Of a stretch of DNA of 64,000 nucleotides, positions 16,151-54,326 are shown in pieces. Both the position numbers and the translations under genes were made by a program. This DNA is from Ostrinia nubilalis (lineage: Eukaryota; Arthropoda; Insecta; Lepidoptera; Crambidae). Location of the stretch: NCBI RefSeq assembly GCF_963855985.1, contig NC_087112.1, positions 10,108,501-10,172,500 of the forward strand, given 5' to 3'. Below the pieces are notes generated by a model. The model was not told the DNA's origin and searched no databases. It saw nothing but the letters and a program-made list of their open reading frames with translations. Each line of letters starts with the position of its first letter. Position 1 is the first letter of the stretch.

Positions 16151-17829
16151 TTTGCCAATTTCAAATTTATGATTGATTATGCACCAGGCCAACTGGACCT
16201 CACGGATTTCAAAGGTGTTCCTAGATGGCTAAAAGCCCATGGTTTTAGTGGGTCCCATAGAAGACTTTCTCGTGAACTAGACCCCCTCTAAACGAACACT
16301 TATGATTAACCGGCAGTCTGCCTGCGCTTTCTACCATCGGAGAAAGTTGATTGCGACTCGTTTTGGCAGTTTGACAGCCCACCGCTTCCTAGCTATAGCT
16401 ATTTATAAAGATTCGGGCGAAATAAAGTATGGTTTGTCGTGAACGTGAAGGTCAAGACGACGAATTATTATTGAATATTGACTCTAGGCCTGTGCTCAAC
16501 TGCATGGATCTTTACTGAAAACTTATAAAAGATAAATCAATTACGTCCAATTTAGAAACCAATAAAGGATTGAATTTAGACTTAAGTTTAAATTAATTAG
16601 AATTTGAGCTTCGTTTTATCGTTAGAGCCTTTCCTTTAACTAAAGCTTGATTTGAAAATTTTAATAAACCTTGATTGTTGTTTATTTATGAAAACATTCG
16701 TTGATCCTAGTATTTTTATGGACTGCTTGCTCTTTATCTAAATGGTTGTAAGCTACAAATAAACCAACTTTTCTGGGTTATTTTAATAATTAAATATGAG
16801 AATTTAAAAATCCGTTTGTTTTTATTACAGTTTCTCGAATATACTAGATTAAACTAGTTTTTACACAAATAGAATATGATAATAATATGAACTTATAAAC
16901 TTTGCTTGATTTTATTTCACGTCCAGACAGTAGTCATTCTACTACATATTATTACTAGTATCAGAAACTAGTTATTATTTGATATTACTATAATTTGTAT
17001 TTTGAAAATACCGGTCTGAAGTGTATTATTTTTGAGATTTTCTAAACATCTTGTGTTCTTTCAAATTCAATAATTTATTTGCTAGAATACATATTACCTA
17101 CATTCTTAATAATCTTGCATTATTAATAATTAATGAATATTCATGTTTTGTTTTATTATATTCGTGGTAAGTCTTCATCAGTAATTTGTCTTAGGGTTAC
17201 GGAGAGGTTAACCCGAATATTAATAAATTAATAAGTAATTACTTACCGAATATTAATAAATTACACTTACCACGATGTGTCAATGTTATGAATATTTGAA
17301 TTTAGTCTATTAGAATATTATTCAATTATCAAATTGAATGCTTGTTTTTAACTTATCGATTAAAACTTTCTTCTTGAAGTTGTCGTTTGCTTTCTCCGTC
17401 CCACACAAAGCACAAAGGTTCGTCATTAGTGGTTAACTTCTCTAACGTTTTCGTTTCTTAACCTCTTGACTGCCGGCGAAACATTAGTGCATCATCAATG
17501 CATTTATGTTAACTGGCCGCCTACGTTTCTACGTTTTAGAACGCGTTTCACTATCGGATTGTGATAAAAAGTCATAATTTACGAAATCATAATTCGATTA
17601 AAGAACTTTTAGATCTAGAAATGATTTTTTTGAATAAAATACTTCTGCCTCGTCTGTAGTATCGACTACTAATTATATTTCAAGATTAACGGGACCAGTA
17701 TGTGTCGAAACATTCGGATATTTCGTTACGAAAATGCTTATTGCTGCTTATGTCCGGAGGTCGCGCCAAGGCTGCGCTGGCGCAACGTATCATATCTCGT
17801 ATCACAGATGTGTTGTTATGGAAATAATA
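16151..17829. other. AT-rich stretch, no gene recognised
   Basis: 16160-16410 is of balanced composition and may be an old LINE piece, but I cannot read a domain. 17180-17280 holds a local duplication of CCGAATATTAATAAATTA. Confidence 0.4.
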
Positions 17830-35578: not shown

Positions 35579-35737
35579 ATGCCGGCCATTCTGACGAAGA
35601 TCCGGGAGCAGGCGTCGAGGGTCCAGCCTTCGCTGGCCGTGGGCGTGGGTGTGGGAGTGGCCTTAGCTGCTTGCGCGTTATACGGCACGAGGGAGAAGAA
35701 GCAGCCGCCGCCGTGTCACAATAATAATAATTATAAG
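35579..35737 (+). CDS. ABCD: ABCD coding exon 1
   Basis: Residues 1-53, from the ATG to AAG followed by donor GTAAGA. It ends in phase 0. It encodes a basic start and a glycine/valine/alanine hydrophobic stretch ([16 protein letters not shown]), probably the first membrane segment or part of the peroxisomal targeting region, then an asparagine run. Confidence 0.85.
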
Positions 35738-38700
35738 GTAAGAATGAGCTTTAGGTTCTTTGGTTTCTGCAACGCAGAATTAAGCGGCTTGGCTCAATGA
35801 TGGAAGAGTCAATCCAAGATTACAGACGTTCAGGTTATATTGGCAGTATTTGCACATGGTCCAGGAAAAATACCTTGCTATGTCGCTTGGTTAAACCTTA
35901 TTGCGTATAATCTAGTGATCAGCTCATAAATTCTTCCACCCTGTAAGGTACAGCCAGAAGAACCTGCGTCGCTTCGCCACGCTAAGAATATTTCCAATTT
36001 GCTTTTCTATCAAGCCAATCCCTCTAGACATGAATTAACCATTCACGATTGTGGCATACCCCAGTAACAATTTTCATACAATTCCAGGTCGCAAAAAATG
36101 GCAAGCTCCAAACAGTTACAAATGGCGATGCGCCGGCGCAAGCGTGCGGCGGCCGTTGCGGCGCCGAGCAGTGCGCATTGTGTCGCGGCGACGCCGACAC
36201 CGACAACAAGCAGAATATTGTGAGTATACCCTATACTACTAGGTGGACCGACGATCTGGTAAAGGTCGCGGGAGGAGCCTGGATGCAAGCAGCGCAGGAA
36301 CGTTAATTGTGGAAAACCTTGGGGGAGGCCTTTGTCCAGCAGTGAACGTCATTTGGCTGAAACGAACGAACGAACCCTCATAATACACTTCACTGGTTGG
36401 GTTTTTATTGGCGGTCAAGCTGAAGATCCTTGTTACACTGGAGTTACAGCGGTGGGAACGAGAAGTGAGAATAGTCCCGTACAAGTACCCTCATACCGAG
36501 CAGTACCATTATCAGCCTACAACTGACACAATATTGATAGTACCCTCATGTCTAGAAGTACAGCTATAATTAGCCTACCTTAGTCGGCTGCCAGGGCTAC
36601 GCCCATGGGCCTGATCTTCTCATATCTACAAGTACGATAATTATCAACTTATGTCACAATTATAAGCCTGAACTTCAGCTATTCCTTTCCAGAAACTTAG
36701 TTTATGCTGTTTCTCCATCATGCTTAACGATGTCTTATTCATACTAAAAGATGTTAATTCTAACTTTGACATTCACGGCGATCCCCAATCTTGCAGGAAG
36801 ATGCAGACGATCCCGCGCCGACTCCAGAAGAACACGTTCCCGGCTTGAACCTGGAGTTCCTCCGGCAGCTGGTGACCCTCGCCAAGATCATGGTTCCAGG
36901 AGTCCGCAGCCACGAGGTGGCGCTGCTGACGGCACATACCTTGTGTCTCTTCTCCAGAACCTTCCTGTCGATATACGTGGCGTCCTTGGAAGGGTCCATT
37001 GGTGAGTCCATCAGGTTCTAGAAATGGTTTAAGAATTATGATTTTTGTACACTCTTCTACAAATGAGAACAACCATGGGAACAAACTTCAGGTGAACATG
37101 AATCTCTGATGTGGCTCAATGGATCAATATCGCTTGTAATTTTCTGAACAGTAAGTTGAAAAGCCTTCCAATAATGAAATTAAACCAAATTGGTACCTTT
37201 AAACCACTTTTTTGAAAAAAAATAAAAATAAACCACTACCTTTTTGCCTATATTTACGAGTATCATGGTGTTGATTTTCCCACCCAGTAGGGCACATAAT
37301 CCAGAAGGTTTTCTATTGCTGCTTGACTCTCGGTAATCATCTTATTCTGCATGATGTCAGATACTACTTTATGGCCTATATTCTGGTGATCAGCTCAGTC
37401 CAGAAAGTCTTATGTATGTCAGGCACTGTATATTCACTGTTTAATTTTCCCACTCAGTAATGCACATGTCCAAAGTTCTCTACATCTTAATAATCATCTC
37501 CATAATCCTTCCAGTAAGGCACATAGTCCAGAAGGACCTGCGTCGCTTCGCGGCACTCCTACTCCAGTGGTTCGGCATCGCAGTACCAGCTACCTTCATC
37601 AACTCCATGATCCGGTACCTCGAAGGCAGGCTAGCGCTGGCCTTCCGCACCAGGATAGTCAACCACGCCTACGAGCTCTACTTCAAGAACCAGACTTACT
37701 ACAGAGTGGCTAATTTGGATGCCAGGATCGAGAATGCGGATCATAGGTGAGATGTTTTGAACACTATAGCGTGGCGAGTGCTCGATGCGAATGAATGTAA
37801 TGAATGAGAATGAGTAACTGAATGAAGTGAGAGTATTCGCATCGAATAGTTTGGTCTGTGTAGGCAAAAAGTTGCCTTTTAGGTTTTCTCCATCGGCGTG
37901 TAACAAGAGCTGACGCACACAGCTAGACGGGGAACTAGGCAAAATACTTCTTGAATTTAAGACGGATTTAATTGTAATAAATAACAGAACTGCCAAACCG
38001 TCTAGTCAGCGTGGGCCTTGGGGAGTGTAGGCCAAATTCTCCATTAATTGCTTTTGTAGGATGCTTTCTAAAACCACAAATCTGGCAAGCGTGAGGAGTG
38101 GAGGCCCTCCATTTGCCTTTGTAAATGAGTTTCTAGCTCCTATAGTGGAGGGAGAACTAAAGATGATGTTAAACTTTCAGGCTGACCGAAGACGTATCAG
38201 TGTTCACACAATCAGTGGCGCACCTGTACAGCTCGCTGACCAAGCCGTGCTTCGACCTGCTGCTCATCGTGCTGACCCTGGCCAGCTATTCCAGCAAGAT
38301 GAAGGGCAACATCTTCCTCGGTGAGTGTCGTCACTGTTGTTGTGTTGTGTGTCGGTGTTCACCAATCAGTGGCGCACCTGTACAGCTGTTACACTCGCAA
38401 CGGACGGATGACCAGTAGTGACCACCTCCACTATTCTTGTATTCCAGCAGTAGACTGCAATTGATTAGTGGCGATTTAAAATGATATTTATTTATGTACT
38501 AGCTTTTGCTCGCGGCTTCACCCGCGTGAAATTTAGTTTGTCACAGATCTTCATAAATTATAGCCTATATGTTATTCTGGTTTATAAATAATAATACTGT
38601 AAAGTTTCATCAAAATCCGTTCAGTAGTTTTTGCGTGAAAGAGCAACAAACATCCAGACATCCAAACTTTCGAATTTATAATATTAGTAGGATAGGATCA

Positions 38701-41700
38701 TATGAACTCTCGCTGTGCTTTCCAGTACGTAATATCCACTCCAGAACCTTGCTGCCCCATTGGCCGTCAGTTCTGCGTACCATGTGCCCTGTTCATTGCC
38801 ACTTCAGCTTGTTAATCCTTCGGGCTGCCCATTCTTAAGGCGCTGGATGCAGGTCGCTACCAACCGGCATTATGGAAATCATCAGGGGAGGCCTATGTTC
38901 AGCAGTAGACGTCCTATGATGATGTATGAATTCTCAATGTTGTTACAACAGATATCAATCTGCTCGCTTCCATTCACCATGGTAAAAATAAACTGTTTAC
39001 TGACAATCTACTCTGTTTCTACAGGGCCAGGCCTAGCGACGGTGGTGATCTGCCTAACGGGACAGGTGCTGCGCCTGCTGTCGCCGCGCTTCGGCGCGCT
39101 GGCCAGCGAGGAAGCACGCATGCGGGCGCAGCTGAGGCATGCGCATGCGAGACTGATTGCACACTCGGAGGAGGTCGCCTTCTATGGAGGACACAAGGTG
39201 GGGTACATTCATAGTCTCTTCACACCTAGCGTGATCTGCCTGACGGGGCAGGTGCTGCGCCTAGGGTTGCCAGGTCCAAAATCACAAAAGCCGGACTGTG
39301 TGCTTCATTTGGCCGGACATTTAACCGGACATGTGATTTGGGGGGGGGGGGGGGGTTGCAATTAGTGTCATAGCTCACGAGTGAGTACTATCATCATCGG
39401 TTGCCCCACATCATGATGCGTGCGCTTCATATTATTCTGTGGCTGGCACGGTAGCATAAAAAAGCCGGACAAGCCAATATTTGGCCGGACTAGACCTTAT
39501 AAAGCCAAACATGTCCGGCTAAAGCCGGACACCTGGCAACCCTAGCTGCGCCTATTGTCACCACGCTTCGGCGCGCTGGCCAGCGAGGAGGCGCGCATGC
39601 GGGCGCAGCTGAGGCATGCGCATGCGAGGCTCATTGCACACTCGGAGGAGGTCGCCTTCTATGGAGGACACAAGGTAGGATACAGTCGTAGTCGTTTGTT
39701 ACGTCATACATAGCGACGGTGGTGACGTATGCGGGCGCAGCTGAGGCATGCGCATGCGAGACTGATTGCACACTCGGAGGAGGTCGCCTTCTATGGAGGA
39801 CACAAGGTAGGATACAGTCGTAGTCGTTTGTTACGTCATACATAGCGACGGTGGTGACGTATGCGGGCGCAGCTGAGGCATGCGCATGCGAGACTGATTG
39901 CACACTCGGAGGAGGTCGCCTTCTATGGAGGACATAGGGTGGGATATAGTTGTGGTCATTTATAGTCAGTCATTTGTCTCTTCACACTTAGTTAGTTTTG
40001 CAGGGCAATCGCAATGTCTAGCGACGGTGGTGATCCGTATACGGGCGCAGCTAAAGCATGCGCATGCGAGACTTACTAAAGTCGCCTTCTATGGAGGACA
40101 CAAGGTAGAATATCATATAAAGCCTGGTCTGCGCGCTCGCACACTCACTGCGGGCGCCCGTCGCACAGTCGCGACAGCAATATAATTACGCGCGAGCGAT
40201 AAGGATGGGAAATTGGGGTCATTGGACAAAATTCTACGTGCTCGCAGACCAGACTATAGATCGTTCCATCCACGAAGACACGCCCCACGAATAGTAGTCG
40301 TCGTTTCAGCCAAATGACGTCCACTGCTGGACAAAGGCCTCCCCCAAGGTTTTCCATAATGAACGGTCCTGCGAAGCCCGCATCCAGGTTCTTCCCGCTA
40401 CCTTCACCAGATCGTCGGTCCATCTAGTGGTGGGCCTACCTACGCTACGTCTTCTGGTCGAAACTTGAGAACTTTTCTGCCCAATGCGCATGTGACTCTG
40501 ATTGCGCATTAAGAGGAGGTCGCCTTCTATAGAGGACACAAGGTGGGATACAGTCATAGTGTCCACTCCTAGCGACTGTGGTGATCTAGCTGAGGCATGC
40601 GCATGCGACACTGATTGCACACTCGGAGGAGGTCGCCTTCTACGGCGGACACAAGGTCGGTTATAGTTGCGGTCATTTGTAACGTCATACATAGCGACTG
40701 TAGTGATTTGCATGCATTCGGAGGAGGTCGCCTTCTATGGGGGACACAAGGTGGGATACAGCCATAGTTTCTTCATACTTAGTTACTTTTGCAGGGCAAT
40801 CGAATGTCTCATTTAGCCTCATGATTAGACCATTATGCGCTCTTCACACCTAGCGACGGTGGTGATCCACATGTGGGCTCAGCTAAAGCATGCGCATGCC
40901 AGGTTGATAGCGCATTCGGAGGAGGTCGCCTTCTATGGCGGACACAAGGTCGGTTGTAGTTGTGGTCATTTGTAACGTCATACATAGCGACGGTGGTGAC
41001 GCATGCGGGCGCAGCTGAGGCATGCGCATGCGAGGCTGATTGCACACTCGGAGGAGGTCGCCTTCTATGGGGGACACAAGGTAAGAAACGGGCGAGTGAC
41101 TGAATGACTGACATAGTGATCTATCAACGCACAGCCCAAACCACTGGATGGATCGGGCTGAAATTTGGCATGCAGGTAGATGTTATGACGTAGGCATCCG
41201 CTAAGAAAGGATTTTACGAAACTCCACCCCTAAGGGGGTAGAACGAGATCCACGCGTACGAAGTCGCGGGCGGCCGCCAGTTATATAGATCGTTCCGTCC
41301 ACGAAGACGCGCCCCACCATTCTGCCGCTAATGTTAGAGTGTTATCGGTACACGCTAAATTATCCATGAGTGCACACGCACACTACAATAATGACGCTCG
41401 GATTGCTCGTATCAAACTCCCCGCACCATAAGCTGTGGTGGTTTTAATCGTCACGCATTCGGAGGAGGTCGCTTTCTACGGGGGACACAAGGTAGGATAT
41501 AGTCATAGTCTCCACTCCTAGAGACGGTGGTGATAGGGGCTGCGCTTACTGTCGCCGCGTTTCGGCGGATCTTCTCGATGATCTTTAGCCTAGGCGCAGA
41601 CCACCAACTCTTCGTTGGCCGATAGTTGAGTCGGGCTGTTAATCAGTATGGAGATGTATGAAAGTGCGCACATTACGCCGATTTGGTATCGGCCGATTCT

Positions 41701-44700
41701 TCATACAAATTAGAATCGGGACCAACTATCGGCCAACTAAAAGTCGGTGGTCTGCACCTAGGCTTACTGATGGACACTAGAAAAAAACGATTTGTTTTGA
41801 CCCTCAACGGTGGATATAAAAATCTAAAAAATTCGTGTCATGCTCTGGGGCGGGACTACCTTATCGTAGGTACATAGAATAGGTATGAAAGAAATGTATA
41901 AAAAATGTATATAATTGTAGCCTTAACTTAAAAAAATGTATATCTATAGTTTTGTTGTAAACATTAATTATAAGTGGGCCCGCTGGAGAGCATACTCCCT
42001 AGCGGGCCCACCTAGAAGATTCTGTTACTGAAGGTTTCTAAATTCGTTTATGAGACCATAAAAATGTATATTAAATGTATACAAATCTGCTATACCTACT
42101 CAATTTTGTATTTGATTTAGTATAAACCGATTTACGGCAAATTTAAAATTTCCTTTCGGAATATTTAGGGGAGACTGGCCCAAAGCGGGCACCTCAAGGT
42201 AAAATAGAAAAAAAACATGTGAAATGAAAATTGAGTGAGTGAAGTGAATCTCACGAGAATGAATACAGAATATGTGAAATGGAATTCCCACTCGAATTTT
42301 TTTTACAAAGTTTAAAGGCAATATTTATTTGTTTATATCTGTTACGCTAAAGATAGGTGTGAACATAAATTTAAGATTAGCCGGCTAAACTTAAGTGTAA
42401 CCGCAGGCTAAAAATGTAGATGGAAATGGAAAAGGAAACAATGTAATAATGTTTACTATTTTAACACGAAAACTTTATTAAAAAATAATCATTTTCATTA
42501 CACATACTTTTATGTACCTATGTAGGTATTCAAAATTACAATTATTACAATAACAAAATATTAATTACTTAATCATTACAGAATCGTCTGTAGGTATTTA
42601 AAATTACAAAATAAAACTGCGGACGCGCTGTCTCCCCACCGTCCTCAAGCCCTCCGCCGGCCTGGCGCGCCCATCGAATACATTTTTAGCCGTTTCGTTT
42701 TGGCTAATGTGCACATTAGCCGGCTAAAGATGGAATATCACGACGCAAACTAACATGTTATCGAACTTTAGCTGCTTCTCGAAGATAAACTTAAGTTTAG
42801 CCGGCTAATCTTAAGTTTATGTTCACAACTATCTTTAGCCGTAACATATCTAATCCTCAGCCCATAGTGAGTGGACACGTTTCTGAGCCATAGGTACTTA
42901 TATCATCACTCGTAGCACACGCACACAGTTTGTAGACTTTCGTCTTTAGGTAGGTACTGAGATATTGTTTTGGATGAAATGATGTTGCGTAATTTACCGA
43001 ACACTGCCCAACCGAGTTGGATACGATACGACGATTGACATCTTTCTCGAAATTGGACCAACCTAGCTGAATCGTTTGTCCGAGGTAGACATACTTGTCA
43101 ACAATCTTGAGATCGAGCTCCCAATCTAATATCAAAATTTTGCATATTCAGTATATTTTTTTCCGACTTTACCTTGAGGTGCCTGCGCTTTGGGCCAGTC
43201 TCCTCTAAATATTCCGAAAGGAAATTTTAAATTTGTTGTAAATCGATTTATACTAAATCAAACACAAAATTGATTATAGCAGATTTGTATACATTTAATA
43301 TACATTTTTATGATCTCATAAACGACTTTAGAAACCTTCAGTAACAGAATCTTCTAGGTGGGCCCGCTAGGGAGTATGCTCTCCAGCGGGCCCACTTTGA
43401 ATTAATGTTTACAACAAAACTATAGATATACATTTTTTTAAGTTAAGGCTACAATTATATACATTTTTTATACATTTCTTTCGTACCTATTCTATGTACC
43501 TACGATAAGGTGGTCCCGCCCCAGAGCATGACACAAAAATTCAGCTGTTCCATACCATTGGATTTTTCAGATCAGATGATGAATGATGACATAAATAAAT
43601 GCTGAAATTGCAAAGCAAAATATGTATATTTTTAAACTCTTCCAGATAGCTACTAGCTTTCTTTAAAACTCAAACCGGCAGTTACCAACACCGTTGGGTG
43701 GAGTATTGTCATCTTGAAATGTATATTTGCTTGTAAAAGTGCACGGAACAGAAATCTTTTATTGCAGCAGACTTTTTAAGACTTTGTATTTCGCTTGCAG
43801 GTGGAGCACGGCCAGCTCCAAGCCGCTTACAAGTCGCTGGTGGCGCAGATGACGCACGTGTTCAAGCAGAAGCTGTGGTACGTCATGCTGGAGCAGTTCT
43901 GCATGAAGTACGTGTGGTCCGGCGCCGGCATGGTCATGCTCGCGCTGCCCATCCTCACCGGCGGCAAGGACGGTGAGCAACACGATCTATACTAATCTTA
44001 CGGGACTATTCCCACCTAGGGTTGCCAGGTCCAAAAAACACATGACTATGTGCTTCATTTGGCCGGACATTTTACTCTAAAAGCCGCAATTAGTGAGCTC
44101 ACGAGTGAGTACTCATCGGCATCATCGGTTGCCTAACGTCCTGATGCGTGCGTGCCTTATTCTGTGGCTCGACTTTCGCCTGGCGCGGCAGCCAAATAAA
44201 AAGCCGGACAGGCCGGACATCGGTTATTTTGGCCGGACACGCAATCAAAAAGCCTAACTATGTCCGGCTTTATCCGGACGCCTGGCAACCCTATTCCCAC
44301 CTCTCGTGTAGCCAGGATCCACAGCTTGACCGCCACAAAAACCCAACCAATGAAGGTCAAGTTTGTCCCGGGGGAAAGTTAAACTGTCATTGGACCCGCA
44401 ACGAAATTAATCAAAAGAACATAGGAGGAGTTTGAAATTAATCTTGTAAAATCTTTGAAAAGACAGACAAATAGTGACCGAATTTCTTGCGCTGCTTCTT
44501 CTCAGCACTGGACAGGCAGTGGTAGGTTGCGACGTCTAAATGTGGTATTTGGGTGCCTATTTGCATAAATAAACAATTTAAATTTAAATTGTCAATGTGA
44601 AGTTTGTTTAGATGAACGCGCTAATCTCGAGAACTGATCCGATTACATAAATGATTTTTGTGTTGAATAGCCCTTTTATCGAGGAAGGCTTTAGGCTCTA

Positions 44701-47700: not shown

Positions 47701-50700
47701 AAAAATACGTCATTGTATCCTGCACATTTTCTCAACATTGTAATAGAAGCCTTAAGCCTAATTTACTTACTACTTTCGACATAGCAGAAGTTAAAAACTA
47801 CACAATGTAGCACATTATTTTACATGTCCCACAGGAAAGATAATGTACACCAACGACCTATCAATACGTCTCCGCAACGTGCCCATCGTGACGCCGGCCT
47901 GCGACGTCGTGGCGTCGGGCGTGTCGCTGCACATCGCGCCCGGCACGCATCTGCTCATCGTCGGCCCGAATGGCTGTGGGAAGTCCAGGTACGATGGGGT
48001 TACGACGTCATATGCGTCTTTAAATCGATATTTTTTAACACATTGATGGACAGTAACGTCCACGAGCGTTCAGGTAGCAAAGAATGATACGACAGAACGC
48101 ATATAGACGTCATAGTTTTTACTCGATTTACATTGACACTACCTACTCCATATGTGAATAAGTGATGTCGTATTGGGAAGTAATTCTTAACTTGTACTGT
48201 CCGCCAAAGTGTTAATGTCAATCAAGCGTAAACAAAAAGGCGTGATCACATAAACAACGTAGCAAAGCGAACCCAGATATATTTCGCCACTTTACAAGAA
48301 TAACGTGGTATTTTTAAAACCACCACTATAACATGTCACGTTGTTCTTGTAAAGAGGCGATTTATTGAAAGGGTATCACTGCTTGTAAGACATTGTTTTT
48401 GTGGCTGCAAAATCAGCTAAGAAAAAAAATGAAATGTTTTATTCAGCGACGCAAAACAACATCAAGAATATAAAAAAAACTAAACCTAAATAATGTGCGT
48501 GTCAGAAATGGTATCCATTCAGCATCATGCCGACCTGGTGTCGCAAGGGACACCACTCAATGATAGCTATCGCTTTAGCGGTCACTAGTTGGCGCTACTG
48601 TAAAGTAAGGTCACTGTCACTTGCTAGTGGCGAAGACAGTGGCACCAACTGATGAGCGCTGAAGCGATAGGAGAACTATCGCATTTGCACTCACCAGGAT
48701 GGCGCCACTGTAGAGTAGGGTCATTTCACAGTGGTGGCAACTGTTAGGTCGCTTTCACATTAGGGCGTGAAAAGCGCGACAGCAGCGCGGCAGCGGCGTT
48801 TTTATAATGTGAAGGCAGGAATATTATCCGCTGTCATAGTATGAAATTATCGGCAGCGCGTCTGTTGCACGTTTGTCGCGCTGCTAGAGTTTAGGCAAAG
48901 CGCTCTTAAGTATAAAAACGATAGCCCTTATTACGAATCTACAGTCAACCCAAAAGTATCTCTTCTTAACTAAAGCCTGGTCCGTGCGCACGTAGAATCC
49001 CGTCCAATGACCCCAAGCTGCCCATCCTTATCGCTCGCACGTAATTATGTTGCTGTCGCGCTCACACACTCACTGCGGGCGCGCGTCGCACAGTCGCGAC
49101 AGCAATATAATTACGCGCGAGCGATAAGGATGGGTAGCTTGGGGTCAATGGACGGGATTCTACGTGCTCACGGACCAGGCTTTACCATCTTATTGACATT
49201 TTTAATTTATGTTATTTGCACGATTGTACCTATAACTTGTTGGCGCGTTGGATTTTCCGTAAGCCTTCAAGCAGCCTTCTAAAATAAATAAATAAATCTT
49301 CATTCCAGCTTATTCCGCATAATCTCCGGCCTCTGGCCAGTGTTCGGCGGCGAGCTGTCCGTGCCCAAGCCTTGCGAGTGCGCGCACTGCGCAGACGAGA
49401 CTAGTCTGGACACGCACGACCAGTGCACCAGCAGGCCCATCATGTTCTACATACCGCAGAGGTGAGATACGCCATCATCATCGTCAGGTCATTCATTTTC
49501 TAAGCTGGTAACCGACATAGCCAAGCCGACCGGCCTTTGTTTGTTTACTGCTGGAACGGCATTTGGTTGAAATAAGTAGCTACGACGATGATGCTCCAGT
49601 TGTGTTATTAGTCTCCAAACTACGCTCCTGTTGAGCTGGAGGACTAGTGCCTGAAGTTTTTTTTACCATAACCACGGGAAAAGTGAAGGTGTGGTTCATA
49701 TGTTATGCAGGTCGTCGTCGTCGTTTCAGCCGAAAGACGTCCACTGCTGGACAAAGGCCTCTCCCAAAGATTTCCACATCCTATGGAGGAATAATACAGA
49801 ATATGTAATCAATATAACATTTTTGGATGATTTTACAAGACACCTCTTCTTTTATTTGGCAATGATTCAAGATCTGTGGTTGTGAAAATCTTTTATTAAG
49901 GATTTTCTCCATCAGTGGGTATTTTTAAGCTGATGATTGACGTGTAATACCCAACTATCACCCACTAACTTTTTTATCATCTTCCAGACCATACATGTCA
50001 GTGGGCACGCTCCTCGACCAAGTGACGTACCCGTCGCGCGGGCACGGGCCGGAGGCGGAACAGCGCGCGTTGCACGTGCTGAAACTCGTGCGACTGGACG
50101 CGTGCGCCGCGCGACACGGCGGACTGCGGGCCGAGCGCGACTGGCGCGCCACGCTGTCTGGCGGCGAGAAGCAGAGGATGGCTATGGCTAGGATGTTCTA
50201 TCACAGGTCAGTAAGGGAAGATATCCGTTGAACGGAGCGCACTTACATGGCCGTAAAGAAAATAGTATTTTATTACAGTTCCTATAGTCTTTTTCACCTA
50301 AGATGATCCGTATCACACTTCAAGGTTGTCCATATTACGCATACTACATATTATGCAGAATATGTTTTAAAAATAATTTGTATACAATTAACAATATAAG
50401 ACAAAAATTAAACTACTTATCTTGAAATGTATAGTAAAATCTGAGTCTATTGGATTATATTTTAATTAAATACGATGTAAAAATATTTTTTATTTAAAGT
50501 ACGCAATGTGTGATACGGAATAGATTTAGAGCTGGGATACAACCAAATCGATTATATCGCGGTTCATTAATCGATAACAGTGAATACTTACCTCCTTACT
50601 AATAAAACTTACACGCTCGTTGATCAGTGTTTTAAAGTGACGTTTAGTATAGAAATGTCATTTTAAAACAGTGATCAACAACTGTGTAACTTTTTATTAG

Positions 50701-52056
50701 TAAGGGGGTTAGATATTATAAACATCACAAAAATCAACTATATTTTTCGATATTTCGCTGTAAAAATTGCATAAATATTTGAATTTTGAACAGCCAAGAT
50801 TTTCAATCACAATAAAGGAAATGGCGTCTATTCATAGATACCTAGTATGACCTAAAATATAATTCTATGCCTCACAATCAAAATTGAATTTCTGGGCTAG
50901 TTTTTGATCCTTTTTAACCGACTAAATACGTATAAAAATGTTTCTTTAAAAAGTAGGTGCTACTGACTTAGAAAAAAAATCGAATCTAAATCGCTATGGT
51001 AATAGTTATGGGACATCTCTATAACTTTCAAACTCGAAACGTCATAAGGATCATCATACGTGAAAAAGACTATAGAGTCGTAATTGCTTACAACTGATTA
51101 ACTGACATTTCAATCCGGACGGCTGCTCGAGCATGCGTCGGAAGCCGGTCGGCTCCGAGCGTATTCCAGCGGATAAATAAATAAATAAATAAATATCCTT
51201 GGACATTTTACTGCGCTTTTAGTCTCAAACTAAGCAAAGCTTGTACTATGGGTACTAGACAACGGATATAAACATACTTAAATACTTTTTTTTTGTAAAT
51301 ACATACATATTTATACATAGAAAACACCCAGTCTAATACAAACAAATATGTTCATGCACACAAATGTTTGTACTGTGCGGGCATCGAACCCGCAACCTCC
51401 GGAATAGTAGTCCGTTTCGAACCACTACACCAAACGGCCGACAACTGCGCAGACGCGCGCATTCCACCGCATTTTTGGCCGAACGGACGCTGCGTTGCGC
51501 GCCGACTCGCGCTGGTCAATGGGAATTCTACTTAAGGCTTAAATTTAATAATTATGAATATGAATTACATGCATTTCAGTTAAATCCAATTTTGTAAAAA
51601 AATAATTATTTTTTCTTGGGCCCAGGGCCAAGCCGAGGGGGCTTAGGCTTGATTTCCTTTTAGGCTGAACATCGGTGACCGACGTCAGCGGCGCGCACGA
51701 TTACACACTAGTTCTATGTAATCATCTGCCGCTGACGACGGCGTTGCAGTGCGGTGCTTCATAGAACATTGTGTTTATTCGTACGCTCGACCGATGTACG
51801 CGACCGACGTCAGCGTAGGAGGAAATGAAGCCTTAGGGGCCCGTGGCATTTCGTCAGCCCTGCCACCCTGTAATTACGCCACTGGATTTATAAAACTCAC
51901 TTACCCTAATGTCTGTTTTCAGGCCCGTATACGCGCTATTGGACGAATGTACCAGCGCCGTTTCCATGGAGACAGAGGTGGTGATGTATGAAGCAGCCGT
52001 GCGCGAGGGCATCACGCTACTGTCCATCACGCACCGGCCCAGCGTCTGGTGAGTAC

Positions 52057-52088
<32 letters not shown>

Positions 52089-52367
52089 GGTGGTGATGAC
52101 GAGGCAGCCGTCGCGAGGGCATCACGCTGCTGTCCATCACGCACCGGCCCAGCGTCTGGTGAGTACCATCATCATCATCATCATCAGGTGGTATGACGAG
52201 GCAGCAGTCGCGAGGGCATCACGCTGCTGTCCATCACGCACCGGCCCAGCGTCTGGTGAGTACCATCATCATCATCATCATCATCATCAGGTGGTGATGA
52301 CGAGGCAGCCGTCGCGAGGGCATCACGCTGCTGTCCATCACGCACCGGCCCAGCGTCTGGTGAGTAC

Positions 52368-52399
<32 letters not shown>

Positions 52400-52477
52400 G
52401 GTGGTGATGACGAGGCAGCCGTCGCGAGGGCATCACGCTGCTGTCCATCACGCACCGGCCCAGCGTCTGGTGAGTAC

Positions 52478-52509
<32 letters not shown>

Positions 52510-52779
52510 GGTGGTGATGACGAGGCAGCCGTCGCGAGGGCATCACGCTGCTGTCCATCACGCACCGGCCCAGCGTCTGGTGAGTACCATCATCATCATC
52601 ATCATCAGGTGGTGATGACGAGGCAGCCGTCGCGAGGGCATCACGTCACGCACCGGCCCAGCGTCTGGTGAGTACCATCATCATCATCATCATCATCATC
52701 AGGTGGTGATGACGAGGCAGCCGTCGCGAGGGCATCACGCTGCTGTTTATCACGCACCGGCCCAGCGTCTGGTGAGTAC

Positions 52780-52811
<32 letters not shown>

Positions 52812-52889
52812 GGTGGTGAGGACGAGGCAGCCGTCGCGAGGGCATCACGCTGCTGTCCATCACGCACCGGCCCAGCGTCTGGTGAGTAC

Positions 52890-52921
<32 letters not shown>

Positions 52922-53097
52922 GGTGGTGAGGACGAGGCAGCCGTCGCGAGGGCATCACGCTGCTGTCCATCACGCACCGGCCCAGCGTCTGGTGAGTACC
53001 ATCATCATCATCATCATCAGGTGGTGATGACGAGGCAGCCGTCGCGAGGGCATCACGCTGCTGTCCATCACGCACCGGCCCAGCGTCTGGTGAGTAC

Positions 53098-53135
<38 letters not shown>

Positions 53136-54326
53136 GGTGGTGAGGACGAGGCAGCCGTTTGACCAGAGCCAAAGGAAAGATTTGGTCATTCTAATATTCT
53201 GGCCAGACGTCATTTGGAGGCCAGGTTCATGCATTGAGTGCTTCATCATCATCATCGGGGCTTTTAGGCCTGCTATACACGGACAGCTTGAAGCAGTTAG
53301 TGTCGGCAGCTTCAAGCTGCGACTGCATAGCAAACTACGGAAACAGTTGTAACTGCTCCAGCGGTTCCGTGTAGTATACTGCAATTTGCTATGCAGTCGC
53401 AGCTTGAAGCTGTCAGATACTAGCTGCTTCAAGCTGTCCGTGTTAGGCGGGCCTTAGTCTCCGCTGTGGGAGCACAACCCTCTTTAATTTAATAAAGGCA
53501 AAAAGGAGGTTACCCTACATTGCTCATGCTAGCTAGGCATAATTTGGTGGCCAAGATCGCGCGCTCAGTACTTAACTCGTGATAACAAAGGTACCTCTTA
53601 GAGTAGGCGCACACCGTTGATTTTTCGTCGATAGTTTAGTCGGGCAGTTGATCAGTATGGGCATGTATGGGAGTGCGCATACTACGCCGATTCGATTTGG
53701 CCGATTCTTCATACAAATTAAAATCGGGCACAACTATCGGCCAACTAAAAATCAACGGTGTGCGCCTACTCTTATAGATCATGATCGTAATGATTCTTCA
53801 ATTTAACACAAGGACAACAAATTCTTTGTGAGAACACCACATACACGGTTTACGATAACGTAAGCTTATTTAACTATAGTCTGGTCCGGGAGCACGTAGA
53901 ATTTTGTCCAATGACCCCAAGCTACCATCCTTATCGCTCGCGCGTAATTATGTTGCTATCGCGCTCGCACACTCACTGCGGGCGCCCGTCGCACAATCGC
54001 GACAGCAATATAATTACGTGCGAGCGATAAGGATGGGTAGCTTGGGGTCATTGGACAAAATTCTACGTGCTCACGGACCGGGCTTTACATCATCATAAGC
54101 TTTAACTAACGTATAAATATTTTTCAGGAAATACCACACGCACGTGCTAGAGTTCGACGGCGCCGGCGGCTGGTCGTTCCGGCCGCTCGACCGCCTGGCC
54201 GCCGCCGCGCCCGCCGTCGCCATCGCCGACTACACGCACGCCGCCGCTACCGCCACCGCCACCGCCACCGCTACCGTCACCGCCGCGCCGCAGGAGGCCG
54301 ACAGAGCGATCGCTGTGCAGAACTAG
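35579..54326 (+). CDS. ABCD: ABCD1/2-type peroxisomal ABC half-transporter (14 coding exons)
   Basis: Joined exons: 35579-35737, 36088-36219, 36797-37001, 37515-37746, 38181-38320, 39025-39197, 43801-43972, 45081-45190, 46445-46604, 47835-47988, 49309-49461, 49988-50206, 51923-52048, 54128-54326. All junctions are GT/AG, phases match, and the total is 2334 nt or 777 residues (human ALDP is about 745). Order of parts: N-terminal hydrophobic segment (19-36), transmembrane domain with [14 protein letters not shown] (150-163), EAA-like motif SEEVAFYGG (337-345), Walker [10 protein letters not shown] (538-546), Q-loop Q596, signature LSGGE (653-657), Walker B YALLDE (673-678), H-loop H707. This family works as dimers in the peroxisome membrane and imports very-long-chain acyl-CoA for beta-oxidation. 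ABCD1/2 fits better than ABCD3 because of motifs such as NSMIRYLEG and CTSAVS. Six exons have extra partial copies in the introns. Confidence 0.93.
35930..35983 (+). repeat. Diverged copy of the exon 4 5' end in intron 1
   Basis: TTCTTCCACCCTGTAAGG, then CCAGAAGAACCTGCGTCGCT and TCGCCACGCT, align with the exon 4 acceptor and first codons at 37505-37556 (CCAGAAGGACCTGCGTCGCT) with a few mismatches and small indels. Confidence 0.75.
36088..36219 (+). CDS. ABCD: ABCD coding exon 2 (cysteine-rich)
   Basis: Acceptor CAATTCCAG, donor ATT followed by GTGAGT, phase 0 to 0. Residues 54-97. It carries C73-x3-C77-x4-C82-x2-C85 within [17 protein letters not shown], with no counterpart that I know of in vertebrate ALDP. 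It ends in an acidic linker. Confidence 0.8.
36239..36376 (+). mobile_element. RTE LINE tail in intron 2
   Basis: GGTGGACCGACGATCTGGTA through GTCATTTGGCTGAAACGAAC, ending in a GAAC repeat. It begins 19 bp after the exon 2 donor. Imperfect ACCCT-type flanks hint at a target duplication. Confidence 0.75.
36388..36483 (+). repeat. Interspersed repeat, family shared with 44294, 59650 and 63160
   Basis: GGTTGGGTTTTTATTGGCGG, then TCAAGCTGAAGATCC and GGTGGGAACGAGAAGTG. The same blocks occur at about 59770, 63165 and, inverted, at 44300. Confidence 0.6.
36797..37001 (+). CDS. ABCD: ABCD coding exon 3
   Basis: Acceptor CAATCTTGCAG, donor ATTG followed by GTGAGT, phase 0 in and 1 out. Residues 98-165 begin the transmembrane domain, with the family hallmark [15 protein letters not shown]. 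It includes LKIIVP-like [15 protein letters not shown]. Confidence 0.93.
37271..37475 (+). repeat. Two decayed copies of the exon 4 acceptor junction in intron 3
   Basis: 37271-37309 reads TTTTCCCACCCAGTAGGGCA then CATAATCCAGAAGG. 37439-37475 reads TTTTCCCACTCAGTAATGCA then CATGTCCAAAG. Both mimic the true junction CCAGTAAGGCACATAGTCC at 37511-37529. Confidence 0.7.
37515..37746 (+). CDS. ABCD: ABCD coding exon 4
   Basis: Acceptor ATCCTTCCAG, donor CATAG followed by GTGAGA, phase 1 in and 2 out. Encodes [20 protein letters not shown], the [15 protein letters not shown] segment and [19 protein letters not shown], strongly conserved in ABCD1/2. Confidence 0.93.
38181..38320 (+). CDS. ABCD: ABCD coding exon 5
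   Basis: Acceptor AAACTTTCAG, donor CTCG followed by GTGAGT, phase 2 in and 1 out. Encodes [20 protein letters not shown] and [20 protein letters not shown], the next membrane helix pair. Confidence 0.92.
38356..38390 (+). repeat. Partial copy of exon 5 in intron 5
   Basis: GTGTTCACCAATCAGTGGCG then CACCTGTACAGCT, 36 bp after the exon 5 donor, copies the part of exon 5 around 38202-38236 with one base missing. Confidence 0.8.
38499..38697 (-). mobile_element. Non-autonomous Helitron in intron 5
   Basis: Minus strand: 5' TCCTATCCTACTAATATTAT, 3' CGGGTGAAGCCGCGAGCA then AAAGCTAG|T. Confidence 0.7.
38713..38925. mobile_element. Two RTE fragments in opposite orientation
   Basis: 38713-38840 matches the RTE coding tail on the minus strand (ACCTTGCTGCCCCATTGGCC). 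38841-38925 matches the last coding part on the plus strand (GAGGCCTATGTTCAGCAGTA), ending in GATGATG. Confidence 0.6.
39025..39197 (+). CDS. ABCD: ABCD coding exon 6 (EAA-like motif)
   Basis: Acceptor CTGTTTCTACAG, donor CACAAG followed by GTGGGG, phase 1 in and 0 out. Encodes [39 protein letters not shown] and [12 protein letters not shown]. The last block is the EAA-like motif between membrane helices 4 and 5. Copies of its 3' half are scattered through the following intron. Confidence 0.93.
39225..39674 (+). pseudogene. Exon 6 copy 2, split by a hAT MITE
   Basis: 39225-39261 (CTAGCGTGATCTGCCTGACG) and 39545-39674 (CGCTTCGGCGCGCTGGCCAG through GACACAAG) together form a nearly complete exon 6 copy with donor GTAGGA. 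The CTCTTCACACCTAG before it resembles an acceptor but lies only about 30 nt from the exon 6 donor. Seven bases are missing near the start. Confidence 0.85.
39262..39544. mobile_element. hAT-like MITE with 8-bp target duplication
   Basis: Ends TAGGGTTGCCAGGT and ACCTGGCAACCCTA are flanked by GCTGCGCC on both sides (39254-39261, 39545-39552), an 8-bp duplication as expected for hAT. It contains a run of about 15 G (39341-39355) and GCCGGACAT-rich sub-repeats. A second copy is at 44017. Confidence 0.88.
39711..39938 (+). pseudogene. Exon 6 copies 3 and 4 (132-bp tandem period)
   Basis: Copy 3 is 39711-39806 and copy 4 is 39843-39938. Each has the first bases of the exon (TAGCGACGGTGGTGA) joined to ATGCGGGCGCAGCTGAGG through CACAAG, with about 77 bases deleted between. 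This deletion puts the two parts in different frames. Copy 3 has donor GTAGGA; copy 4 reads ATAG before GGTGGGA. Confidence 0.8.
40004..40104 (+). CDS. Candidate alternative exon 6 (copy 5), phase-compatible
   Basis: The acceptor-like TTAGTTAGTTTTGCAG ends at 40003, followed by GGCAATCG where exon 6 has GGCCAGG. The exon is 101 nt and ends CACAAG before GTAGAA. Its length gives phase 1 in and 0 out, exactly as for exon 6 (173 nt), and the frame is open: [20 protein letters not shown] then [14 protein letters not shown]. It lacks about 24 residues in the middle, and the conserved glutamates of SEEVAFYGG are replaced (LTKVAFYGG). It could be a mutually exclusive exon or a fossil. No expression evidence is available here. 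Confidence 0.4.
40120..40256. mobile_element. MITE with long inverted ends, internally deleted copy
   Basis: AAGCCTGGTCTGCGCGC on the left and GCTCGCAGACCAGACT on the right. The centre holds GCGACAGCAATATAATTACG. Larger copies at 48973 and 53877. Flanked by TA. Confidence 0.65.
40293..40484 (-). mobile_element. RTE LINE 3' end in intron 6
   Basis: CCAAATGACGTCCACTGCTG through GAACTTTTCTGCCCAA is the minus-strand RTE coding tail with a GTC-type tail. It interrupts the exon 6 copy array. Confidence 0.75.
40485..41080 (+). pseudogene. Exon 6 copies 6 to 10
   Basis: Copy ends, each directly before a GT: 40542 (GTGGGA), 40655 (GTCGGT), 40750 (GTGGGA), 40948 (GTCGGT) and 41080 (GTAAGA, the best consensus). 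All keep GGAGGAGGTCGCCTTCTA and CACAAG. Starts are near 40485, 40570, 40692, 40851 and 40984. A second acceptor-like TTAGTTACTTTTGCAG at about 40796 is followed by an in-frame TAG. Confidence 0.8.
41095..41280 (+). mobile_element. Helitron-like repeat in intron 6
   Basis: GACTGAATGACTGACATAGT at the left and TACGAAGTCGCGGGCGGCC at the right, the same family as 59070-59605. It ends CCAG instead of CTAG. Confidence 0.5.
41452..41567 (+). pseudogene. Exon 6 copy 11 and a 5' exon fragment
   Basis: 41452-41491 (GGAGGAGGTCGCTTTCTACG, then CACAAG before GTAGGA). 41519-41567 carries the other half of the exon (GAGACGGTGGTGATAGGGGC, then TGTCGCCGCGTTTCGGCG) and lacks a donor. Confidence 0.75.
41587..41765. 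mobile_element. MITE, TIR family shared with 53599
   Basis: Left end AGCCTAGGCGCAGACCACC, right end GGTGGTCTGCACCTAGGCT. Centre GCCGATTCTTCATACAAATT is shared with the 53599 copy. Confidence 0.7.
42341..42845. mobile_element. Inner TIR element nested in the foldback
   Basis: GTTACGCTAAAGATAGGTGT then TAAGATTAGCCGGCTAAAC on the left is matched by the inverse on the right, ending CTATCTTTAGCCGTAAC. Arms are about 70 bp. The centre includes a GC-rich block at 42620-42670. Confidence 0.65.
42850..43140 (-). mobile_element. Degenerate RTE LINE fragment
   Basis: The minus-strand frame reads [20 protein letters not shown], then FEKDVNRRI and [11 protein letters not shown], matching the mid-C-terminal part of the RTE protein at 84-1289 with frame damage. 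Confidence 0.75.
43801..43972 (+). CDS. ABCD: ABCD coding exon 7
   Basis: Acceptor TATTTCGCTTGCAG, donor GACG followed by GTGAGC, phase 0 in and 1 out. Encodes [40 protein letters not shown] and [14 protein letters not shown], the fifth and sixth membrane helix region. Confidence 0.93.
44017..44293. mobile_element. hAT-like MITE, second copy, 8-bp target duplication
   Basis: Same TAGGGTTGCCAGGT ends as 39262-39544. TTCCCACC flanks both sides (44009-44016, 44294-44301). Confidence 0.88.
44294..44440 (-). repeat. Interspersed repeat, inverse copy of the 36388 family
   Basis: The minus strand contains GGTTGGGTTTTTGTGGCGG and GATCCTGGCTACACGAGAGG. The hAT MITE inserted into it, because TTCCCACC belongs to this repeat. 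Confidence 0.6.
44441..44590 (+). mobile_element. LINE 3' UTR fragment, 4935-7830 family
   Basis: TTCTTGCGCTGCTTCTTCTC and AGCACTGGACAGGCAGTGG match the family UTR, ending TTGCATAAATAAACAATTT. Confidence 0.5.
44600..44805 (+). mobile_element. Non-autonomous Helitron, 5'-eroded
   Basis: The body shares TATCGAGGAAGGCT and CCAATAGGAGCAGAGCA with the 54341 copy in the opposite orientation. It ends ATCGCGGGCACAGCTAG|T. Confidence 0.65.
45081..45190 (+). CDS. ABCD: ABCD coding exon 8
   Basis: Acceptor CATCTGTCCACAG, donor TACAAG followed by GTGACG, phase 1 in and 0 out. Encodes [20 protein letters not shown] and [17 protein letters not shown], the conserved helix leading from the membrane domain to the nucleotide-binding domain. 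Four extra copies follow directly. Confidence 0.92.
45191..45750 (+). repeat. Four tandem exon-8 copies (122-bp period)
   Basis: Exon-like copies at 45229-45312, 45351-45434, 45473-45556 and 45595-45678. Each is 84 nt, separated by identical 38-nt spacers that begin with a GT donor (GTGACG) and end with CATGTCACAG. The four are identical to each other but differ from exon 8 by four synonymous changes, one Asn to Asp change, an in-frame 3-nt loss and a shorter 5' end. Placed after exon 8 in phase 0, each is open: [20 protein letters not shown] then ERLMSSYK. A fifth unit starts at about 45716 and then diverges. The 38-nt spacers are too short to be introns, but skipping to copy 2 or later leaves an intron of 160 nt or more. 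Confidence 0.85.
46165..46405. mobile_element. hAT-like MITE with 8-bp target duplication
   Basis: Ends TACAGTTGCCGCGAATA and TATTCGCGGCAACTCTA, flanked by GTCTACAG on both sides (46157-46164, 46406-46413). It lies 39 bp upstream of exon 9. Confidence 0.85.
46445..46604 (+). CDS. ABCD: ABCD coding exon 9
   Basis: Acceptor CATCTGTTCCCAG, donor GAAG followed by GTATGT, phase 0 in and 1 out. Encodes [20 protein letters not shown], then [13 protein letters not shown] and [11 protein letters not shown], the linker before the nucleotide-binding domain. The alanine/histidine-rich [10 protein letters not shown] stretch is lineage-specific as far as I can tell. Confidence 0.9.
46623..46777. mobile_element. 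hAT-like MITE directly after the exon 9 donor
   Basis: Ends CAGGGTTTCCCAAAC and TTTGGGAACCACTG. Flanks ATCTAAGC (46615-46622) and ATCTGAGC (46778-46785) form an 8-bp duplication with one mismatch. It starts 18 bp into intron 9. Confidence 0.82.
46924..46959 (+). repeat. Partial copy of the exon 9 3' end with a strong donor
   Basis: GGTCACCTTCCGCGACCGCC then AGCCCGTGCCCGAGG, followed by GTAAGTT. The donor is closer to consensus than that of exon 9 itself. It is preceded by CTCTAG. The one change inside, CCA to CCC, is synonymous. Confidence 0.85.
47040..47272 (+). mobile_element. LINE 3' end with CTTT tail
   Basis: TGTGATGTCCATGGCAATAA then ATGTTTCTTTCTTTCTTTC. The same trailer occurs inverted at 63738-63800. 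Confidence 0.55.
47321..47473. repeat. Small hairpin with ATGTCATT-type units
   Basis: GTTTTGACGCAGGACGTCAT then ATTCGCAAATGTCAT on the left is mirrored by ATGACATTTTGCGAATATGA then CTTTGCGTCAAA on the right. The centre has TTACTTTCTC and CACTTTCGTAAT units reminiscent of the 33773 hairpin. Confidence 0.65.
47474..47705 (+). repeat. Possible retroposed 3' end with poly-A
   Basis: Balanced-composition sequence ending in TGCAATCAATAAAGCTACG and AAAAAAAA, that is, a poly-A signal and a short A tract. No frame is recognised. Confidence 0.35.
47835..47988 (+). CDS. ABCD: ABCD coding exon 10 (Walker A)
   Basis: Acceptor CATGTCCCACAG, donor TCCAG followed by GTACGA, phase 1 in and 2 out. Encodes [20 protein letters not shown] and [15 protein letters not shown]; the P-loop serine codon is completed in exon 11. 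Confidence 0.94.
48276..48366. repeat. Hairpin repeat
   Basis: TCGCCACTTTACAAGAATAA then CGTG is mirrored by CACGTTGTTCTTGTAAAGAG then GCGA. Confidence 0.6.
48367..48972. other. Intron 10 sequence, repeats of uncertain type
   Basis: 48540-48745 contains repeated blocks such as GGCGCCACTGTAGAGTAGGG and GGCGCTACTGTAAAGTAAGG. 48750-48900 looks like another MITE. No coding signal. Confidence 0.35.
48973..49182. mobile_element. MITE with ~90-bp inverted ends, copy 2
   Basis: AAGCCTGGTCCGTGCGCACG on the left, TGCTCACGGACCAGGCTT on the right, with GATAAGGATGGG in both arms. Flanked by TA. Confidence 0.8.
49309..49461 (+). CDS. ABCD: ABCD coding exon 11 (Q-loop, cysteine-rich insert)
   Basis: Acceptor CTTCATTCCAG, donor CAGAG followed by GTGAGA, phase 2 in and 2 out. 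Encodes [16 protein letters not shown] and MFYIPQR with Q596. Between them is a segment rich in cysteine and histidine ([12 protein letters not shown], then HDQC) that replaces the short KPPPQR-like linker of vertebrate ALDP. Confidence 0.92.
49533..49785. mobile_element. Two RTE stubs in intron 11
   Basis: 49533-49590 is a plus-strand 3' end (ACTGCTGGAACGGCATTTGG, ending GACGATGATG). 49709-49785 is a minus-strand stub (GTCGTCGTCGTTTCAGCC, then GACGTCCACTGCTGGACAAA). Confidence 0.65.
49988..50206 (+). CDS. ABCD: ABCD coding exon 12 (ABC signature)
   Basis: Acceptor TTATCATCTTCCAG, donor CACAG followed by GTCAGT, phase 2 in and 2 out. Encodes [15 protein letters not shown], an arginine/alanine-rich helical part, and [18 protein letters not shown] with the LSGGE signature. 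Confidence 0.95.
50590..50708. mobile_element. Hairpin MITE in intron 12
   Basis: ACCTCCTTACTAATAAAACT on the left and TTTTATTAGTAAGGGGGTT on the right. The arms continue inward with TTGATCAGTGTTTTAAA and TTTTAAAACAGTGATCAA. Confidence 0.75.
51173..51447 (-). mobile_element. tRNA-derived SINE
   Basis: The minus-strand head has box A TTTGGTGTAGTGGTTCG and box B GGTTGCGGGTTCGATGCCC. A SINE body follows, and an ATTT-repeat tail at 51173-51196. It is inserted in intron 12. Confidence 0.8.
51923..52048 (+). CDS. ABCD: ABCD coding exon 13 (Walker B, H-loop)
   Basis: Acceptor GTCTGTTTTCAG, donor GTCTG followed by GTGAGT, phase 2 in and 2 out. Encodes [20 protein letters not shown] and [14 protein letters not shown], with Walker B D677/E678 and H-loop H707. 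Its 3' half with the donor is repeated ten times downstream. Confidence 0.95.
52049..53158 (+). repeat. Array of ten exon-13 3' copies separated by CAT microsatellites
   Basis: Units of about 88-110 bp: GTGAGTACC, a run of CAT (5 to about 14), CAG, GTGGTGATGACGAGGCAGCC, then the exon 13 end up to GTCTG. Copy ends, each before GTGAGT: 52158, 52255, 52359, 52469, 52579, 52667, 52771, 52881, 52991, 53089. Copies are nearly identical, with single differences (for example TTTAT for CCAT in the 52771 copy). As extra exons in phase 2, most would read TGG TGA at once, a premature stop. Confidence 0.9.
53267..53453. mobile_element. Hairpin MITE with TTA duplication
   Basis: Ends GGCCTGCTATACACGGACAG and CTGTCCGTGTTAGGCGGGCC. 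Arms share GCAGCTTCAAGCTGCGACTG. TTA lies on both sides. Confidence 0.75.
53599..53773. mobile_element. MITE, second copy of the 41587 family
   Basis: Ends AGAGTAGGCGCACACCGTTG and CAACGGTGTGCGCCTACTCT. Confidence 0.8.
53877..54085. mobile_element. MITE with ~90-bp inverted ends, copy 3
   Basis: Same family as 40120 and 48973 (GCGACAGCAATATAATTACG centre). It ends 42 bp before the last coding exon. Confidence 0.8.
54128..54326 (+). CDS. ABCD: ABCD coding exon 14 and stop
   Basis: Acceptor AATATTTTTCAG, phase 2 in, stop TAG 54324-54326. Encodes [17 protein letters not shown], the conserved end of the nucleotide-binding domain, then a low-complexity alanine/threonine tail encoded by GCCACC hexamers (about 54246-54285) and ADRAIAVQN. 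Confidence 0.93.

Follow-up and report, generated by a model that had tools for sequence, protein, structure and literature searches.

Structure of the ABCD1-type locus

The window, a 64-kb stretch of the Ostrinia nubilalis genome, carries an ABCD1-type peroxisomal ABC transporter gene (35579–54326, +), delineated by a gene model and a protein match. The model is intact: its 14 exons, all with GT-AG borders, give a CDS of 2334 nt without internal stops, and the translation is 100% identical over 777 aa to an O. nubilalis protein record (P0001) that holds one copy of each exon; a 124-aa stretch of it matches ABCD1 in the PDB (E=1.4 × 10−22). Six of the functional exons in the model concern us here, namely exons 4 (37515–37746), 5 (38181–38320), 6 (39025–39197), 8 (45081–45190), 9 (46445–46604) and 13 (51923–52048), all on the + strand. 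Among the best 49 of 120 protein matches listed (P0001–P0049), no protein contains the exon-8 or exon-13 peptide more than once, indicating that the gene's functional exons form the canonical set. The sole doubled peptide among these 49 is that of exon 7, found twice in P0044, a 692-aa gene model of Papilio machaon; this is either a real lepidopteran exon duplication or an annotation or assembly fault.

Intronic copies of six exons

Each exon, with 80-nt flanks, was compared with the 64-kb window by self-BLASTN (E ≤ 0.01), revealing 30 intronic copy segments from exons 4 (n=2), 5 (n=1), 6 (n=12), 8 (n=4), 9 (n=1) and 13 (n=10); the total is 29 if a split exon-6 copy (39231 + 39545) is taken as one, and it leaves out a degenerate exon-8 acceptor-side piece (45691–45749) and a 25-nt exon-13 stub. 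The same search returned no exon copy in the window for exons 1, 2, 3, 7, 10, 11, 12 and 14, the matches of exons 2, 7, 11 and 14 falling in their flanks and not in exon sequence. All 30 segments lie inside the gene in direct orientation, on the gene's strand, and the sole minus-strand exon match is that of exon 9 to itself (65%). A splice junction is crossed by 26 segments, the donor in 24 and the acceptor in two, both from exon 4; three segments consist of exon sequence only (one from exon 5, two from exon 6), and segment 40999–41082 stops 2 bases beyond the exon, with a donor present when read by eye. The exon sequence in copies of at least 80% identity sums to 1806 bp, or 0.77 of the coding length. 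Copy ages are unequal: the four exon-8 units are mutually identical, the exon-13 units are near-identical barring the number of ATC repeats, the exon-4 copies are the most decayed, and many copies are diverged by 5–25%.

The two exon-4 copies comprise an acceptor with the exon start in intron 1 (35913–35977, +; BLASTN 75%) and an acceptor-region copy (37271–37315, +; BLASTN 78%, with a 25-nt core at 92%), and the exon-5 copy (38349–38387, +; BLASTN) covers 40 nt with a 1-nt deletion and no junction. All 12 exon-6 segments lie between 39231 and 41567. The first copy (39231–39693, +; BLASTN) is in two pieces, 39231–39256 and 39545–39693, its halves being split by an insert at about 39257–39544 and its sequence bearing a 7-nt deletion as well (both by reading); ten further segments follow (39712–41570, +; starts at 39725, 39857, 40011, 40484, 40588, 40708, 40870, 40999, 41456 and 41532), most of them ending in a donor. 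The exon-8 array (45191–45708, +; BLASTN and unit alignment, copies at 45237–45708) consists of four identical 122-nt units, each with an 84-nt open copy (28 codons), an acceptor and a donor, separated by 38-nt spacers, and is overlapped at its end by the degenerate acceptor-side copy (45691–45749, +; BLASTN 68%). Exon 9 has a single copy of its 3′ end and donor (46921–46970, +; BLASTN 90%). The exon-13 array (52049–53158, +; copies at 52088–53158) contains ten units of the form GTGAGTACC-(ATC)6-10-exon 3′ end and the stub with (ATC)12, the copies being out of frame with respect to exon 13. TRF reported head-to-tail units of 122 nt (×4.8), 110 nt (×9.2) and 132 nt (×2.6). A whole exon with acceptor and donor was copied for exon 8, in shortened form, and nearly so in the first exon-6 copy, and not for exons 5, 9 and 13.

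These results confirm that the initial observation, made from the sequence by a first-pass annotation, was real and accurately described: about 29 copies of these six exons, nearly all including a splice junction and differing in age. Its assignment of junctions holds for the donor side of exons 6, 9 and 13 and the acceptor side of exon 4, whereas the exon-8 copies, which it had placed with the donor-side group, are whole shortened exons with both sites, and the exon-5 copy lacks a junction. The exon-4 copies are decayed and acceptor-side as described, with only two passing the BLASTN threshold.

Exon-end arrays elsewhere in the genome

A genome profile search with PF06472 (14 matches) identified two ABCD-type loci, the window gene and a gene on C4 that we take to be ABCD3-like. 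In this gene, the first control tried, an exon end with its donor is copied twice more downstream, giving three copies of a 156-nt unit. Ten random 20-kb blocks of the same genome were then sampled with TRF and BLASTN. TRF detected six non-dispersed arrays with a period of at least 50, of which four have at least 2.5 copies; three of these four (B22, B28 and B36) contain a likely coding exon end by reading, called coding from open frames and donors by eye, with the donor of B22 unclear. Array B38 (16863–17673) has no clear exon and was counted as non-exonic, and two further non-dispersed arrays of ∼2 copies each (B22 6875 and B34 5942) were looked at for composition only. BLASTN found ∼21 local direct-repeat families without matches in the other blocks; three were recognised as exonic, and three of the remaining 18 were inspected closely. 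A Pfam search with the array peptides of B28, B36 and the ABCD3-like gene returned nothing above the cut-off; the receptor, Dbl/Trio and ABCD3 labels are presumptive.

The rate was estimated from two gene families. Searching the genome with myosin and kinesin domain profiles yielded 36 genes with 146 distinct exon segments, nine of which are repeated nearby; with muscle myosin on C10 and the doubtful C18:1268097 set aside, seven were accepted as exon-end arrays, in 6 of the 36 genes. At protein-profile sensitivity, arrays thus affect 5% of exon segments (95% interval ∼2–10%, computed on 7/142) and 17% of genes (6–33%), and the accepted copies amount to 8.9% of matched exon length in the two families. 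The segment set aside on C10 (1895670–1897021, −) is one myosin-head exon segment in four copies, most likely, we assume, the known alternative exons of insect muscle myosin. On C1 (15783372–15811450, +), two kinesin exon segments are separately arrayed; they probably belong to a single kinesin gene, which would be a second multi-array gene like ABCD1. On C27 (2638622–2639804, −), a myosin intron contains exon-end copies embedded in a GTGACTCCAGCGTCACA minisatellite, ∼5.4 kb downstream of their parent; over the stretch of exon compared, all five copies equal the parent, and the sequence before it is altered. The peptide of this C27 array gave a good Pfam match.

The suggestion that a process peculiar to one locus was at work is not supported, given the ABCD3-like gene, what look like exon-end arrays in three of the ten random blocks, and 6 of the 36 myosin and kinesin genes. 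Finding the same density of exon fragments in most genes had been named as grounds for rejecting the observation; the same arrays do occur elsewhere, but not in most genes (∼17% of genes, 5% of exon segments). If 5–10% of exons are affected, the chance of 6 of 14 exons in one gene is 3.3 × 10−5 to 1.5 × 10−3, so that over an assumed ∼16,000 genes about half a gene to two dozen such genes are expected even without clustering; the 6 of 14 comes from BLASTN, which is more sensitive than the profile method behind the 5%. Within a common process ABCD1 is an outlier, and it drew attention for that reason. Exon-end arrays look like a habit of the genome and not an oddity of one gene, a view drawn from ∼14 cases, four of them in ABCD1, in a small sample of one assembly.

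Donor-side polarity of the arrays

Almost every array repeats an exon 3′ end together with its donor and lies on the downstream side of the parent. Seven arrays were detected by profile: in six of them, later copies stop within 2 positions of where the first copy stops in the profile, and mostly begin later; in the seventh (C1:15783372) the copies equal the first. Since the parent was defined as the first copy in transcription order, 'downstream' is here partly so by construction; in five of those six arrays the first copy also gives the longest match, the case in which one copy matches longer being C27, whose first copy has an intron-like acceptor tract on reading. The donor was read directly in six arrays (C27 and C18 for myosin; C4, C20, C1:15154 and C1:15807 for kinesin). 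Acceptor-side cases were seen only for ABCD1 exon 4 and the degenerate segment at 45691–45749. Spacers measure ∼6–45 nt in most of the arrays read, and are not short in B22, C18 and C27. A rule placing unit borders at AG-bounded mini-introns seemed to fit several arrays but was dropped, as it failed on reading in the ABCD3-like gene, C1:15154 and C20.

Synonymous excess in the copies

A copy that has been dead since birth changes freely while its parent changes only silently, and about 40–47% of the differences between them, depending on the exon, are then expected to be synonymous, or 47–55% if a GC-to-AT bias of threefold is allowed for. The pool of 15 arrays or single copies gave 88.5 synonymous and 37.5 replacement changes (70% synonymous) against 62.8 synonymous changes expected with bias; these are unique site-state changes, not tree events, and related copies are non-independent, so the P value of about 4 × 10−6 is a guide. 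All nine arrays with at least five changes have a synonymous share of at least 0.6; the other six have at most two changes (synonymous:replacement, exon 9 1:0, exon 4 0:1, exon 5 2:0, C20 0:1, C4 1:0 and C27 0:0). Taken alone, three of the 15 reach P<0.05 against the unbiased expectation, namely exon 6, the ABCD3-like gene and C1:15154.

The excess is most pronounced in particular copies: the first exon-6 copy differs from exon 6 by ten synonymous and no replacement changes over 51 codons compared, exon-6 copy 40870 by nine and two, the first ABCD3-like copy by eight and none (seven of them within 19 nt), and the kinesin array C1:15154 by 16 and six. The decayed exon-6 copies 40018, 40484 and 41532 total 10.5 synonymous and 10.5 replacement changes. 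Of six indels counted, four shift the frame. When exon 6 is begun at an inner CTAG, its phase is kept and its frame stays open, as is likewise true of copies 40022, 40695 and 40854; copies 39714, 39846, 40573 and 40988 fail to match in phase or open frame. Judged from these substitution patterns, some copies were probably usable exons, and alternative use of some of them would be the simplest cause of the synonymous excess. Two other sources of synonymously shifted copies were rejected: PF06472 finds, at its sensitivity, no ABCD1 paralogue beyond the window locus and the C4 gene, and a synonymous difference of ∼20% was judged too high for alleles, given usual ranges of allelic divergence.

Origin of the arrays

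The reading we favour, with a probability of roughly 0.65, is that tandem duplication across the exon 3′ end and donor, followed by minisatellite-like amplification, generated the arrays, and that they are tolerated since the original donor comes first. A short DNA-level tandem duplication would start inside the exon and cross the donor into the start of the intron, and the duplicated segment would then be amplified as a minisatellite. The geometry supports such a course, with direct orientation, an adjacent parent, varying copy number, identical young units and recurrence in other genes of the genome; because the units contain intron sequence, they are not retro-copies. Polarity would reflect a splicing filter: after a donor-side duplication the true donor stays first and a short spacer cannot be removed as an intron, so that normal mRNA would result, whereas duplication on the acceptor side would place the wrong acceptor ahead of the true one and usually be purged. 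GC-rich exon ends beside AT-rich introns may act as fragile sites. The synonymous-biased differences and the phase suggest that some first-generation copies, such as that of exon 6 (39231–39693), were once usable alternative exons, many later units being unusable. The causes named by the first-pass annotation (slippage, local repair and kept exons) were of the right kind.

Several observations fit this reading poorly. Copies that were dead from the start should not show the synonymous excess, and the partial units at the ends of several arrays are not expected from simple duplication. Spacers are not short in B22, C18 and C27, and steric exclusion is therefore not the whole of the filter; nor does a splicing filter account for the high frequency of exon-bearing arrays. 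A seed test gave P=2.7 × 10−4 for at least 20 exon bases falling in every one of six duplicated segments of such lengths, and was rejected since all six had been chosen as known exonic.

A possible but doubtful alternative is that the copies are, or recently were, real alternative exons, mutually exclusive since most spacers are too short for splicing, and kept by purifying selection on the protein. The 10:0 ratio over 51 codons in the first exon-6 copy, the 9:2 ratio in 40870, the 8:0 ratio in the first ABCD3-like copy, the 16:6 ratio in C1:15154 and the pooled 88.5:37.5 all argue for it, as do the exon-6 candidates at 40022, 40573, 40695 and 40854, whose lengths of 83, 83, 56 and 95 nt each leave a remainder of 2 on division by 3, as that of exon 6 does, and three of which are open. 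Set against this, exon-6 copies 39714, 39846 and 40988 are out of phase and 40573 has a stop, the first exon-6 copy has its 7-nt deletion and insert, the exon-8 copies (84 nt versus 110) are out of phase as replacements, and the exon-13 copies are frame-shifted. Moreover, copies 40018, 40484 and 41532 show an even 10.5:10.5, four of the six indels shift the frame, the excess is individually significant in only 3 of the 15 arrays, and the O. nubilalis protein record has single exons. Were the exon itself a mosaic, formed when contraction of an array joins the exon front to the end of a downstream copy, selection on the copies would be latent; this we regard as unlikely. Its support comes from exon-6 copy 39725, whose exon part is that of exon 6 but whose flank is shared with copy 39545 (P=0.002 for the longest clean run), and from exon 8 (P=0.028) and the ABCD3-like exon (P=0.009), which match a copy cleanly over long runs with clustered differences. 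Together, these mosaics in 3 of 14 comparisons (P below 0.05, uncorrected for their number) suggest that exchange between exon and copy may occur, but when latent selection was simulated the synonymous excess was not reproduced: two toy simulations with exchange, one of a single haplotype and one of 60 in a population, had synonymous fractions of 0.35–0.50 and yielded no copy with many synonymous and zero replacement changes.

Two further explanations are highly improbable. Moth genomes contain gene-capturing elements, and the region of the exon-6 copies includes dispersed sequences, so a mobile element could have brought exon pieces back into the gene; yet the orientation is uniform, the parent is nearby, many units are head-to-tail, and the TRF consensus units of ABCD1, the ABCD3-like gene, B22, B28 and B36 match no other sampled block. 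Near-identical units are a classic assembly problem and could reflect single exons multiplied in error, an explanation opposed by the 5–25% divergence of many copies, the differing ages of the arrays, the recurrence of donor-side polarity in unrelated genes and the shortness of arrays of ∼0.5–1.1 kb relative to long reads.

Relation to known systems

We class the arrays as an atypical form of tandem exon duplication with uncommonly high density; the novelty lies in this density and in the polar exon-end form, tandem exon duplication itself having been published. The literature consulted yielded no description of donor-side exon-end arrays in moths, but the claim that this is not a described phenomenon was too strong, for PMC9013439 already reports exon copies that lie unannotated in introns and follow a power-law distribution over genes. 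PMC9013439 and PMC6071210, the latter presenting short spacers as a route to the mutual exclusion of exons, describe features that the moth arrays share, namely tandem same-strand copies with adjoining intron, often unannotated and uneven over genes, and a short spacer that blocks joint splicing. What sets the moth copies apart is that most consist of an exon 3′ end and lack a proper acceptor, and that their arrays can reach ten copies or more. They are also denser: 8.9% of matched exon length in two families compares with exonic nucleotides having homologues at 80% identity of 0.08% in Drosophila and ∼2% in human, as given in PMC9013439, the methods differing so that only the order of magnitude is comparable.

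Like intron minisatellites (VNTRs), the arrays have units of ∼100–350 nt in variable number with a partial last unit, one with an inner (ATC)n; unlike them, they are seeded by exon ends and donors, as in three of the four random-sample arrays with at least 2.5 copies. Tandem duplication across an exon-intron boundary, carrying splice signals, is a known event, being described for an intron gain in potato RdRp in PMC4974935. That duplication was acceptor-side, was tolerated and made a used intron (PMC4974935), in contrast to the moth duplications, which are donor-side, repeated and without a known used new intron. This tolerated acceptor-side case and the spacers of B22, C18 and C27, which are not short, lower our confidence in the proposed mechanism. 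Dispersed copies, the mark of transposon-borne fragments, were not seen for the array units in the sample, whose orientation is uniform, and the absence of intron sequence that marks processed retro-copies is contradicted by the 26 of 30 segments that cross a junction.

Should the two-family rate apply to the whole genome, exon-end duplications would be retained in this moth far more often than has been reported for Drosophila with different methods, and would provide a dense natural collection of tandem exon duplications spanning all ages; such a collection would test the origin of mutually exclusive exons, which splice-site duplications are tolerable and amino-acid retention in copies. A still more tentative extrapolation is that exon-end arrays, produced by a polar process copying exon 3′ ends and donors downstream, involve about 5% of exons and number in the thousands genome-wide, and that a good part of the copies have undergone coding evolution in the role of alternative or replacement exons; introns would then store a reserve of exon ends that stay true to the protein and feed exon turnover. 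Intronic exon copies can confuse exon-finding and short-read mapping in such genomes, which calls for caution.

Other repeats in the window

Beyond the arrays, the gene contains other local direct repeats (36279/38843, 39260/44015, 40255/41284, 41968/43352 and 42361/42781), and most were taken, by reading, for mobile elements. The insert in the first exon-6 copy (39257–39544) carries GGGTTGCCAGG/CCTGGCAACCC as inverted ends and what seems to be an 8-bp target repeat, with a 68% relative at 44015–44293; we take it to resemble a hAT element. Intron 6 contains a large inverted repeat (window positions 41832–43537) with ∼400-nt arms at 93%, between which a minus-strand frame reads like reverse transcriptase. 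Long open frames at 20014–22980 and 6089–7822 (−) (989 and 578 codons, respectively) resemble non-LTR retrotransposon proteins by reading.
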